Positions 2,375 to 5,630 of a stretch of 33,171 nt of DNA are shown here, in pieces. The notes below the pieces were generated by a model. The model worked only from the letters and a program-made list of their open reading frames with translations, did not search any database and was not told the origin of the DNA. A program made the translations under genes and the position numbers. Numbering within the stretch: position 1 is the stretch's first letter; the number at the start of each line of letters is the position of its first letter. This stretch comes from an uncultured Anaeromyxobacter sp. (GTDB lineage: Bacteria; Myxococcota; Myxococcia; Myxococcales; Anaeromyxobacteraceae), in contig CAIQRS010000154.1 in NCBI GenBank assembly GCA_903874275.1, positions 1 to 33,171 on the forward strand, in the 5' to 3' direction.

Positions 2375-2682
2375 GCAGGCTCGCCGAGACCTTCCTGGGA
2401 TCTCTCGGGAGCTCCGCGCTTGTAGGCGACGGCAAGGAGTACGGACCGTGCTCCACCTGCAACACCATGGTCGTCATGTTCGCGATCGTCCTGGACCAGA
2501 GCCCGCCGCCGCGGTGCCATCGCTGCGGCAAGCCATGGGTGGTGGTGCAGGTGACATACGGCTCGCTCCGAACGGAGCCCGAGGCGCCGTCGCCCCCCGA
2601 TCCCTTGGAGGCCCTGTACGACGCGCGGTCCCGGGCGGTCGTCGATGCCATCGCAGCGGAGCGACACAGGCACCAGCCGTGA
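2371..2682 (+). CDS. Phage zinc-ribbon protein, first of a tandem pair
   Basis: The GTG start at 2371 overlaps the preceding stop (GTGA). The 103-residue product carries two knuckles, CSTC and CHRCG, separated by 18 residues, a typical four-cysteine zinc ribbon. A short hydrophobic/Gly segment (LGSLGSSAL) lies before the ribbon and a Pro-rich then helical tail after it. The following gene repeats the same plan with the same 18-residue spacing, so the two look like a tandem duplication. Zinc ribbons of this size in phages can bind nucleic acid or act as protein-protein adaptors; which applies here cannot be read from the sequence. Confidence 0.65.
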   Translation: MSRLAETFLGSLGSSALVGDGKEYGPCSTCNTMVVMFAIVLDQSPPPRCHRCGKPWVVVQVTYGSLRTEPEAPSPPDPLEALYDARSRAVVDAIAAERHRHQP

Positions 2683-2867
2683 CGACGCTGCTCCTGTCCG
2701 CGCTTGGAGGTCGCGCGCTCGAGCGGGACCGGGAGCCCGGCAAGGCCGACTGCTCCGCCTGCGCGGCGACGGCAACGTTCTTCCTGTTGGGCTGGGAGCA
2801 CCAGCCGACGCCCCGGTGCCCGAGGTGCGGCCGGCGGTGGGAAGTGCTGCGCGCTGGGCAGAAATGA
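2679..2867 (+). CDS. Phage mini zinc-ribbon protein, second of a tandem pair
   Basis: The GTG at 2679 overlaps the previous stop (GTGA) and the frame ends with TGA at 2865-2867, giving 62 residues. It matches the previous gene over its whole length: a Leu/Gly N-terminus (LLLSALGGRAL), then CSAC, 18 residues, CPRCG and a Trp (RRWEVL). It lacks the 40-residue tail of its partner and so is a bare zinc ribbon. Overlapping starts and stops across three genes suggest they are translated as one coupled block. The function is unknown. Confidence 0.6.
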   Translation: MTTLLLSALGGRALERDREPGKADCSACAATATFFLLGWEHQPTPRCPRCGRRWEVLRAGQK

Positions 2868-3480
2868 AACAGACCCGGCGCCGGCCGCAGGTGGCCCCGC
2901 CTCGCAGCGGGTCGCCGATCCTGCACTTGCCGGAAACACCGGGTCCATCACCAGCGTAGTCCCGGGACGGACGTGGAGGCAACCCACCAAAAGAACAGGC
3001 CCGGCGCCGGCAGCAGGTGGGTCCGTCTCTCGACGGGTAGCCGATCCTGCACGCGCCGGAAACACCGAGCCCACGAACAGCCTACCGAGGCGACAGACGC
3101 GGCGCAACCCGGACAAAAAAGTGCCCGGGAGCAAGTGGGTTGATGGAGCCTCTCGCGGGAGGAGCCACCGGAACCGGTCACCCGGGCAACCCGGCTTCGT
3201 ATGCGGCTGACCAAGGGTCGGTTCCCCTGCTGCCATACCGCGTAAGCCGGGCACCCTCAGGATACGAGCGGGAGGGACACGGCGCAACGGGAGGCCACGA
3301 GCGGGGGGAAAGTGGGTCCGGGACCTCCACTTGTGCCCGGCGGTCCATGCTCCCTTGCGGGGGAGCAACCGCGCTCCAGGTGCTGACGGAGAACCCGTCC
3401 ACGCTAACCCTGTGGGTCGGAGGTCCCGTACCCGGTTCAAGCCTACCGACCACACGGACACGGCGCAACGGACCGGCCCC
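2868..3480 (+). ncRNA. Candidate structured phage RNA array of four diverged units
   Basis: No convincing gene lies in this stretch, but it is packed with nested inverted repeats. Unit 1: 2872-2878 pairs with 2939-2945, 2881-2885 with 2929-2933, 2887-2891 with 2920-2924, and 2897-2900 with 2907-2910. Unit 2, 126 bases on, repeats the same fold (2998-3004/3065-3071 with one mismatch, 3007-3011/3055-3059, 3013-3017/3046-3050, 3023-3026/3033-3036). Two pairs change on both sides: A-T to G-C in the outer stem and C-G to T-A in the hairpin. Unit 3 has 3123-3129/3181-3187, 3190-3197/3244-3251 and 3199-3203/3234-3238. Unit 4 has a 15-base stem with one mismatch (3314-3328/3419-3433) enclosing a 12-pair hairpin at 3340-3372. 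Strand is inferred from the flanking genes. I cannot assign it to a known RNA family. Confidence 0.5.
2887..3469 (+). repeat. Four diverged direct repeats with shared head and tail words
   Basis: Each unit opens with a GCAGGTGG-like head (2887, 3013, 3131 as GCAAGTGGG, 3308 as GAAAGTGGG). Each closes with a GGCGCAAC-like tail (2976-2983 as GAGGCAAC, then exact copies at 3101, 3281 and 3462). Tail spacing is 125, 180 and 181 bases; units 1 and 2 are the short form, units 3 and 4 the long form. Units 1 and 2 are closest to each other, including 37 aligned bases from 2890 and 3016 with seven differences and no gaps. Confidence 0.6.
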
Positions 3481-3534
3481 GGGAGGGGCACGGGACACAG
3501 GTAGGAGCCCCGTGGCTTGCGTCATGTAGAGTAA

Positions 3535-3552
3535 TAGTGTACTGGTGTACTA
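3535..3552 (+). promoter_or_regulatory. Possible operator upstream of the 121-residue phage gene
   Basis: The word GTGTACT occurs twice ten bases apart inside an 18-base imperfect palindrome that reads TAGT at one end and ACTA at the other. It lies 27 bases before the ATG at 3579, in a short AT-rich patch unlike its surroundings. This suits a regulator binding site or promoter region for the downstream phage genes, but no clear -35/-10 pair is visible. Confidence 0.3.
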
Positions 3553-3578
3553 ATGGGGACGAACCCCAGGAGGACACC

Positions 3579-3944
3579 ATGGCGAAGACGATGGACGTGG
3601 CCGAGGCGAGGAACCTGCTCAACATGGCGAAGCACGAGGGGATGCTCACCTTCAACGCTTCGACCTACCGACGGGCGGTGGAGAGCGTCGCCGTGGTTCT
3701 GCGGCCGCGCTTCGAGGCGGGCGAGCTCGACGAGGCCGAGTGGCGGGTCCTTGAGGTCGAGTGCCGGCGCCTCTTCATCCGGCGGCCCACGCTCGCCTTG
3801 CTGGTTACGGAGCACTCGCCGTCCAAGAAGATCTGCCCGTTCAACTGGGAGCGCGACCCCGAGGTCCCGCTGGCCGAGTGCGCCAAGACCCAGATGGCGG
3901 CGGACGTCCGCGCGCTGGCGAAGCGGAAGGGCTGGATCCGATAG
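3579..3944 (+). CDS. Phage protein of 121 residues, unknown
   Basis: The ATG at 3579 is chosen because a perfect AGGAGG lies five bases upstream (3568-3573). The product is soluble and mostly helical, with a basic C-terminus (ALAKRKGWIR) and a central EEC-like acidic/basic helix (EAEWRVLEVECRRLFIRR). Composition is balanced, with Trp, Cys, Phe and Tyr scattered through it. There is no signal peptide or recognisable domain. It follows the candidate RNA array and precedes a ribbon-helix-helix protein and the integrase, so a role in lysogeny or early functions is possible by context only. Confidence 0.75.
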   Translation: MAKTMDVAEARNLLNMAKHEGMLTFNASTYRRAVESVAVVLRPRFEAGELDEAEWRVLEVECRRLFIRRPTLALLVTEHSPSKKICPFNWERDPEVPLAECAKTQMAADVRALAKRKGWIR

Positions 3945-4000: not shown

Positions 4001-4222
4001 ATGCCCAAGGCGAAGGTCAAGGCGGAGAGCGAGATGGCGAGAGCGTGGGCACGAACAAAGGGCGGGATGACCAAGGCGCTCTTCACGATCACCCCGGAGC
4101 AGGAGGCGGAGCTCCGCGCCGAGGCGTTCAAGCGTGCCACGGCCAGGGGGAGCGGCCGGCCGGACGCCAGCGAGGTGGTCCGGGAGATCCTCGCGGCCTG
4201 GATGAAGAAGCGCGGGAGGTAG
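4001..4222 (+). CDS. Ribbon-helix-helix-like phage DNA-binding protein
   Basis: The ATG at 4001 has GGAGG about 9 bases upstream and yields 73 residues. After a basic 25-residue leader comes a likely beta strand (KALFTITPE). A first helix (QEAELRAEAFKRATA), a turn and a second helix (DASEVVREILAAWMKK) follow. That is the order of the Arc/CopG ribbon-helix-helix fold. It ends two bases before the integrase start, so the two are almost certainly co-translated. Such small proteins next to an integrase often act as excisionase-like or repressor factors. The fold is a moderately confident reading; the role is inferred. Confidence 0.65.
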   Translation: MPKAKVKAESEMARAWARTKGGMTKALFTITPEQEAELRAEAFKRATARGSGRPDASEVVREILAAWMKKRGR

Positions 4223-4224
4223 GT

Positions 4225-5619
4225 ATGGGCGCAGGAGCGACGGGCTACATTCGGCAACGAGGGGGCTTCCTCGAGGCGGTGGTCACGGTCGGCAACGACC
4301 GGATCCGCAAGGCGACCGGCTGCCAGGTCGGCCAGGAGGCGCAGGCCGAGAAGTTCCTGGCCGACCTCCTCCGCGAGATGGGCGCCGTCGGTCCCGAGGA
4401 GGCGCCCCCCGCGGCATCCGAGGAGCTCACGCTCCGCGAGTGGTCCGAGCGGTGGGTGAAGGACCGGCGCGCCCGCGGCATCGTCAGCGTGGCCGACGAG
4501 GAGTCGCAACTTCGCTACCACGTCCTCCCCGACCTGGGCGCCGTGCCGCTCCGGCAACTGACGAAGGCGCAACTGCTCGCGTGGGTTCACACGCTCAAGG
4601 GCCGGCAGGGCGTGGACTCCGACAAGCCGCTCTCGAGCCGCTACATCCACCACATCGCCGGCACGGTGAAGCGGCTCCTCAATGCCGCGACGAAGATCGA
4701 CCTCATCCCGATCAACCCCGCGGTCTGGGACAAGAGCGATCTCCCGAAGAAGCGCGACGTGAACGCCGGGAAGCGGCGCCACGCCTCGTTCCGGGCCTGG
4801 GAGGTCTGGGCGCTCCTGCACGACGAGCTCGTGCCCCGGGAGCGCCGCGTGCTCTACGGCATCGAGTTCCTGACCGGACTCCGTACCGGCGAGGCGTCGG
4901 CGCGGCGGTGGAGCGACCTCGACCTCGACGCGAAGCCGCTGGCCCGCCTGGAGGCGAAGACGGCGTGGAACTCCCGGGTGAAGCTGGAGAAGGGCACGAA
5001 GACGGACGTGGAGAAGGTGGTCCCCGTCCATCCGGTCCTGCGGGAGCTCCTGGTCGCGTGGAAGGCCGAAGGCTGGAAGGAGTACGTCGGGCGGGAGCCG
5101 AAGCCCGACGACCTCATCGTGCCGAGCGAGCGGGGTGCCCGCCGCGGCGCCTCGCACTCCAACAAGCTCTTCCAGGACGACGTGCGGACCCTCGGCCTCG
5201 TGGCCCTCGACGGCGCCGGCCAGGCCGTGACCCGGACCCACTACGAGACGAGGAGCACGTTCCGGTCGCTGGCCCTGGGTGGCGGCGCGGTGGAGCGGGA
5301 CCTCAACCGGATCACGCACCCATCCCCGAAGGAGGCGAGCGACCTCTACTCCCGGATGGACGCGCTCTGGCCGGTCATGTGCCAGGCCGTCGAGTGCATC
5401 CGCATCGGACCCCGAGAGAACGCTGGCTTGACCCCATCGGGGAGGTCACACGGCGTGTCACACGACACAGGCGAAAAGCCTGTGTCGACGGGCACCCAAA
5501 CGAAAAAGCCCCCAAGTCGTGAGGACTTGGAGGCTTCGATTCGTGTCACAGAATGGCGCGCGATACAGGATTCGAACCTGTGGCCCTCAGCTCCGGAGGC
5601 TGATGCTCTATCCAGCTGA
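4225..5619 (+). CDS. int: Tyrosine-recombinase phage integrase
   Basis: The product is 464 residues with start ATG 4225, supported by GGGAGG at 4214-4219. An N-terminal arm-binding region (about 1-55, with repeated short strands) is followed by a SAM-like core-binding helix bundle (about 65-170) and the catalytic domain. Catalytic positions seen are Arg220 in TGLRTGE, a Lys in EKGTKTDVEK, Arg343 in YETRST, His365 in ITHPS and the nucleophile Tyr375 in DLYSR. The usual His of the HxxR box is replaced by Tyr340, with a His at 339 beside it. About 90 residues follow the nucleophile, more than usual, and the last 22 are read from the antisense strand of the tRNA-Arg gene, which also supplies the stop codon. 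The enzyme would insert and excise the prophage at that tRNA. Confidence 0.93.
   Translation: MGAGATGYIRQRGGFLEAVVTVGNDRIRKATGCQVGQEAQAEKFLADLLREMGAVGPEEAPPAASEELTLREWSERWVKDRRARGIVSVADEESQLRYHVLPDLGAVPLRQLTKAQLLAWVHTLKGRQGVDSDKPLSSRYIHHIAGTVKRLLNAATKIDLIPINPAVWDKSDLPKKRDVNAGKRRHASFRAWEVWALLHDELVPRERRVLYGIEFLTGLRTGEASARRWSDLDLDAKPLARLEAKTAWNSRVKLEKGTKTDVEKVVPVHPVLRELLVAWKAEGWKEYVGREPKPDDLIVPSERGARRGASHSNKLFQDDVRTLGLVALDGAGQAVTRTHYETRSTFRSLALGGGAVERDLNRITHPSPKEASDLYSRMDALWPVMCQAVECIRIGPRENAGLTPSGRSHGVSHDTGEKPVSTGTQTKKPPSREDLEASIRVTEWRAIQDSNLWPSAPEADALSS
5463..5487. other. Perfect 10-base-pair inverted repeat inside the integrase 3' end
   Basis: CGACACAGGC at 5463-5472 is the exact reverse complement of 5478-5487, with the loop GAAAA. 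It lies inside the integrase tail that follows the catalytic Tyr. There is no T run after it, so it is not a standard terminator. It could be an RNA hairpin that protects or attenuates the int message, or a recombinase/accessory-protein site near the attachment core. Confidence 0.45.
5503..5536 (-). terminator. Rho-independent terminator of tRNA-Arg
   Basis: On the minus strand a stem built from AAGCC and CCAAGTC paired with GACTTGG and GGCTT (about 12 pairs around one or two mismatches, loop near 5519-5523) is followed by five T residues. It starts about 18 bases past the tRNA 3' end. It lies within the integrase reading frame of the opposite strand and, if the prophage boundary is the tRNA, is phage-supplied. 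Confidence 0.75.
5554..5600. other. Inferred prophage attachment site in the tRNA 3' half
   Basis: A tyrosine integrase reading into the 3' half of an intact tRNA marks this as one prophage junction. The duplicated core should be some part of the tRNA from the anticodon arm to CCA. Its exact limits cannot be set here because the other prophage end is left of the window. Confidence 0.5.
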
Positions 5620-5630
5620 GCTAATCGCGC
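5554..5630 (-). tRNA. tRNA-Arg (anticodon CCG)
   Basis: On the minus strand the acceptor arm GCGCGAT pairs with ATCGCGC. The D arm GCTC/GAGC, anticodon arm TCAGC/GCTGA and T arm ACAGG/CCTGT (loop TTCGAAT) are all perfect. The anticodon loop reads CTCCGGA, giving anticodon CCG, which decodes CGG, a common Arg codon in this DNA. The discriminator is G and CCA is encoded (5554-5556). The body is 74 bases. The gene is intact although a prophage lies against its 3' end, as expected when the attachment core restores the tRNA. Confidence 0.97.

Follow-up and report, generated by a model that had tools for sequence, protein, structure and literature searches.

In a prophage of an uncultured Anaeromyxobacter sp., a non-coding gap (positions 2868 to 3578) close to the integrase end carries an array of palindromic units. 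Does this array specify an RNA or a protein, or is it a repeat that exists at the DNA level? A preliminary description had proposed an undescribed phage noncoding RNA composed of four repeated units. We examined the proposal in a window of 33,171 nucleotides (i.e., the whole stretch of DNA that was analyzed; contig CAIQRS010000154.1, forward strand), in the remainder of the genome, and in collections of related and viral genomes.

Two solid units and two units linked mainly by tails

The gap follows the stop codon of a small protein with two CxxC pairs (2679 to 2867, plus strand; identified by translation; G+C content at third codon positions [GC3], 0.87), and unit 1 begins directly after this stop. 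Its other border is the start of a 121-amino-acid protein of unknown family encoded 3' of the array (3579 to 3944, plus strand), for which no match was obtained in Pfam, PHROGs, or PADLOC. Codon-position G+C content over the gap is flat (0.68/0.66/0.69), in contrast to GC3 values of 0.86 in the long open reading frame (ORF) at the window start and 0.95 at 3579 to 3944. The earlier impression that about 600 bases hold no convincing gene is thus borne out.

Unit 1 (U1; 2868 to 2992) and unit 2 (U2; 2994 to 3118) are direct repeats on the plus strand (74% identity over 125 nt), and their alignment score is 62.5, while the maximum among shuffles is 21.5. Both contain a palindromic module of 88 nt (2871 to 2958 and 2997 to 3084), which in U1 is a nested hairpin with an outer 7-bp stem (2872 to 2878/2939 to 2945) and a 3' box (CAGCGTA), and both have a tail. 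Unit 3 (U3; 3109 to 3288, plus strand) consists of two back-to-back hairpins (about 3122 to 3188 and about 3190 to 3251) and a tail, with an overall fold that is not above shuffles. Unit 4 (U4; 3289 to 3469, plus strand) comprises a long hairpin (3314 to 3433), which encloses an inner hairpin (3340 to 3372), and then a tail.

The 30-nt tail repeats of U2 (ending in GGCGCAAC), U3, and U4 are located on the plus strand at 3079 to 3108, 3259 to 3288, and 3440 to 3469, respectively. The U2 and U4 tails are identical at 24 of 30 positions (best site outside the array, 20), and U3 and U4 share an exact 14-mer (GGACACGGCGCAAC) that has no other exact occurrence in the genome. The tail of U3 is otherwise matched at only 20 to 21 of 30 positions (20/30 for U2/U3), which is the background level, and the U1 tail lacks the exact word GGCGCAAC; the tail repeat is thus weaker than first described. 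Whole-unit similarity of U1 to U3 and to U4 was not above shuffles, the U3/U4 and U2/U3 similarities were reached in 25 and 38 of 500 shuffles, respectively, and neither U3 nor U4 was matched by a covariance model built on the U1/U2 module. The array is thus real, and it consists of two solid units (U1 and U2) and two units linked mainly by their tails (U3 and U4), which confirms the preliminary description in part. A head/tail junction pattern occurred at background level, with a reversed control matched about as often, and a viral scan with a loose form of the pattern returned at least 120 stretches with one match each.

Downstream, an integrase frame (4225 to 5619) shows weak Pfam integrase matches, and its end overlaps a tRNA-Arg gene on the opposite strand (5554 to 5630) that is likely the attachment site and the right end of the prophage. 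Beside the integrase, a 73-amino-acid protein (4001 to 4222) weakly matches phrog_6506, an Arc-like repressor family (E = 0.003). The stretch just 5' of the gene at 3579 (3500 to 3578) is AT-richer, contains a repeated GTGTACT word, and is possibly the promoter or operator of that gene. Upstream of the array, positions 2374 to 2867 encode two adjoining small proteins with paired CxxC motifs (CSTCNTMVV...RCHRCGKPW and CSACAATAT...RCPRCGRRW) that look like paralogues.

Positions 1 to 141 of the window are identical over 141 nt, in reverse complement, to the starts of contigs C118 and C127, which is an assembly branch. Genes for podovirus-like tail proteins and internal virion proteins were recognized on C127 by inspection, so the point is probably common to two related prophages. 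Contig C118, which adjoins the window, holds a 252-nt near-tandem duplication (L200 9349 to 9867; 85% identity). Within the window, a 52-nt direct repeat (8267 to 8318/8561 to 8612; 85% identity) lies in or near the gene for a 4Fe-4S dicluster protein.

Pairing within the units and the case for an RNA

The inverted repeats on which the RNA proposal had been built are present. The stem 3314 to 3328/3419 to 3433 has 15-nt arms with one mismatch (93%), and the hairpin at 3340 to 3372 has 13 pairs and a 3-nt bulge, compared with the 12 pairs previously counted. Both compensatory changes between U1 and U2 were also confirmed (i.e., A-T at 2873/2944 versus G-C at 2999/3070, and C-G at 2900/2907 versus T-A at 3026/3033). 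When the structure of one unit was laid on the other, pairs were kept above the level of random substitution (P of about 0.003; range, 0.002 to 0.006), and the two compensated pairs had P values of 0.01 to 0.04 under the same model. Column shuffles, however, matched both compensated pairs in 55 of 500 cases, and the covariation amounts to two pairs in effectively two sequences or lineages. Template switching at replication is reported to generate hairpins and to preserve the pairing of their arms (PMC8794818); compensation and complementarity alone are therefore no proof of selection on an RNA.

Folded in fixed windows of 130 nt, the region is no more stable than is usual for a window this rich in G+C; the lowest fold z score of the whole window (−4.7) was recorded for the 130 nt at 5401. 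The unit cores, whose ends were chosen after the stems had been seen, gave z scores of −3.6 (U1), −1.7 (U2), −1.3 (U3), and −4.5 (U4; −4.45 before rounding, with −3.7 for its inner hairpin), and a third copy of the module, described below, gave −2.0. Evidence for a strand from G-U pairs is mixed: a C-A mismatch in U2 becomes G-U on the minus strand, while U-G pairs in U2 favor the plus strand.

Searches for relatives covered several collections. No Rfam family matched at its gathering score or at E values of up to 5. With blastn, the phage collection yielded short chance matches only, and 98 related genomes yielded matches of 22 to 55 nt to GC-rich words, with the module absent. The exact module pattern was found neither in IMG/VR nor in 145 relatives, and its 12 matches in some 85,000 species genomes could all be attributed to chance by sequence and by model; the tail pattern was likewise absent from IMG/VR. 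The preliminary description had suggested a covariance-model search based on the four units; a model of the U1/U2 module, run on 60 genomes, gave clear matches to the three known copies alone, and the next match had an E value of 0.002 over 45 nt. The module was thus not found outside this genome at the depth searched.

These results bear on the reading that the array is a structured noncoding RNA, transcribed from the plus strand together with the upstream operon, of which it would be the 3' part, and in which the hairpin units would act as a decoy, a processing signal, or a regulator. We regard such an RNA as unlikely, at about one chance in four. In its favor, the units are tandem, the gap is non-coding and lies within an operon-like run of genes, two compensated pairs accompany pairing kept above random, and U4 has a strong hairpin core. 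Against it stand the lack of any Rfam match or of homologues that could provide real covariation, the ordinary stability in fixed windows, the mixed strand evidence, the lack of promoter or terminator consensus sequences between 2600 and 3700, and the coding position of the third module copy.

A third copy of the module in a predicted polyvalent-protein gene

The preliminary description had missed a further copy of the U1/U2 module, which lies within a coding frame at another site of the genome. This sole other copy, on contig C81 (C81:4337-4424; 88 nt), is 95% identical to the module of U2 (E = 1e-33) and 81% identical to that of U1, so that U2 and C81 form the closest pair among the three copies. 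The C81 copy lies in frame within an ORF of 1,855 codons that matches the LPD3 and ART-PolyVal domains and, below the threshold, LPD22. Its predicted product, judged by these domains, is a polyvalent protein of the mosaic kind described previously (PMC5512222). Contig C81 opens with 158 codons that share 69% identity with the terminal part of the window's first ORF, and its prophage is a relative of the window prophage.

The C81 module starts right after the LPD3 domain, fills the linker, and ends in the codons of the next motif, where the shared 88 nt terminate in the ISV codons; the motif that contains ISV looks native to LPD3 proteins. The module has a GC3 value of 0.58, against roughly 0.95 for most of the gene, and the GC3 value of the surrounding LPD3 stretch is lowered too. 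In a blastn comparison of the array and the C81 gene, the module was the sole common part at this point, the flanks being unrelated and identity falling immediately beyond it; the tails, U3, and U4 had no match in the gene. The linker peptide was detected in its own genome only among 195 genomes of the phylum, and no LPD3 relatives were confirmed in IMG/VR. The LPD3 domain of a relative in another genome of the family (G010) is followed by a linker just a few residues shorter than that of C81, and in LPD3 proteins from phages of Burkholderia and Achromobacter, a variable, A/P/S-rich linker of comparable length leads into a TVxxL-like motif. Since these native linkers are of like length, the C81 linker may be an ordinary one that need not hold an insertion.

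The array might instead have been seeded by a fragment of an LPD3 polyvalent-protein gene, followed by tandem duplication and decay, in which case the hairpins would be by-products of a GC-rich linker tidied by template switching. We consider this origin improbable, at a level of about one in five. It would account for the end of the shared 88 nt within the ISV motif and for a frame 1 without stops across U1 and U2, and it accords with the mosaic nature of polyvalent proteins. It would also require a second exchange, because the C81 copy resembles U2 far more than it resembles U1, and it leaves the tails, U3, and U4 unmatched in the C81 gene. Moreover, the differences between U1 and U2 fall on codon positions 3, 2, and 1 in the ratio 7/6/2 over 80 nt (in an alignment read by hand), which is not a coding pattern of substitution.

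Doubtful to a greater degree is a new class of phage RNA, with transcribed tandem hairpins and a conserved 3' tail, whose module would be constrained and would persist in the coding linker of the sister prophage. A 42-residue repeat protein encoded by frame 1 of U1 and U2, a reasonable caveat of the preliminary description, is very improbable, since the open ORF (2704 to 3210), even though it uses the same frame as the C81 gene, overlaps the gene at 2679 to 2867 in a different frame and stops inside U3, and since neither the flat codon-position G+C content nor the U1/U2 substitutions point to coding.

Proposed exchange between prophages and comparison with known systems

In our preferred reading, to which we assign a probability of roughly 45%, coding and non-coding sites of related prophages have exchanged the module, a small palindromic DNA repeat that would work in a manner like that of the Rickettsia palindromic elements (RPEs). 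The array itself seems to be a short tandem series, in decay, of DNA repeats that form hairpins, and we consider a palindromic repeat spread by copying or exchange likelier than a dedicated phage RNA. The 88-nt module would have moved as a unit between prophages of the same genome, by recombination or by copying between the related prophages, which would have left two copies in the non-coding array and one in an in-frame linker. The linker would tolerate the module because the frame stays open, and the complementarity of the arms may be kept by template switching, weak selection, or both. Two directions of transfer can be envisaged. The closeness of U2 and C81 would fit a transfer after the duplication of U1 and U2, while the overlap of the module's 3' end with the native LPD3 motif suggests an older link to, and possibly an origin from, such a gene.

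This exchange is supported by the 95% copy placed in frame directly after LPD3, by the unrelated flanks, by the kinship of the two prophages, and by retained pairing in an array with flat codon-position G+C content; the low GC3 value also suggests that the module is a foreign piece in C81, although the LPD3 stretch is similarly affected. It is weakened by the number of copies (three, two of them adjacent), by U3 and U4, which lack the module, and by the like-length linkers of LPD3 relatives. No target duplication was seen at the module, and no matching transposase was identified, which also weakens the exchange. The locus also calls for caution, in that a small number of compensatory changes among tandem palindromes is not enough by itself to show a functional RNA.

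Among known systems, integron attC arrays are variable-length tandem palindromes with short conserved boxes. The present array resembles them in its tandem palindromes of varying length and differs in having no cassettes; neither an R' (GTTRRRY) nor an R'' (RYYYAAC) box occurs on the plus strand at 2868 to 3500, and since each box is the reverse complement of the other, this result covers both strands. Type III toxin-antitoxin RNAs (ToxI-like) are tandem structured repeats that precede a small gene. Tandem hairpin units also lie 5' of a small gene here, but they measure 126 to 181 nt, compared with about 35 to 50 nt in ToxI-like RNAs, they matched no Rfam family, and the neighboring gene at 3579 to 3944 matched no toxin family of the ToxN, CptN, or TenpN kind and no other family in Pfam, PHROGs, or PADLOC. 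Miniature inverted-repeat transposable elements (MITEs) and REP sequences share with the present repeats a short, palindromic form without coding capacity of its own. The present repeats are, however, not dispersed in the genome, and no matching transposase was identified for them; a MITE is further disfavored by the imperfect 7-bp outer stem, at which no flanking target-site duplication was seen.

The closest comparison is with the RPEs, which are palindromes of about 150 bp that sit within protein genes without breaking the frame and code there for a short peptide (PMC10969869). RPEs form a dispersed multicopy family, whereas the module here has three copies confined to two related prophages, and its units stand in a tandem array. 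With regard to in-frame insertion, the C81 copy is in frame, and the native linkers of LPD3 relatives are of like length. The 88-nt module with its nested stems corresponds to a hairpin-forming repeat of about 100 to 150 nt, and, as for RPEs, it is short and palindromic, with one copy in frame in a protein gene. If the module truly moves between coding and non-coding sites, it would represent an RPE-like route, outside Rickettsia, for changing the linkers of polyvalent phage proteins.
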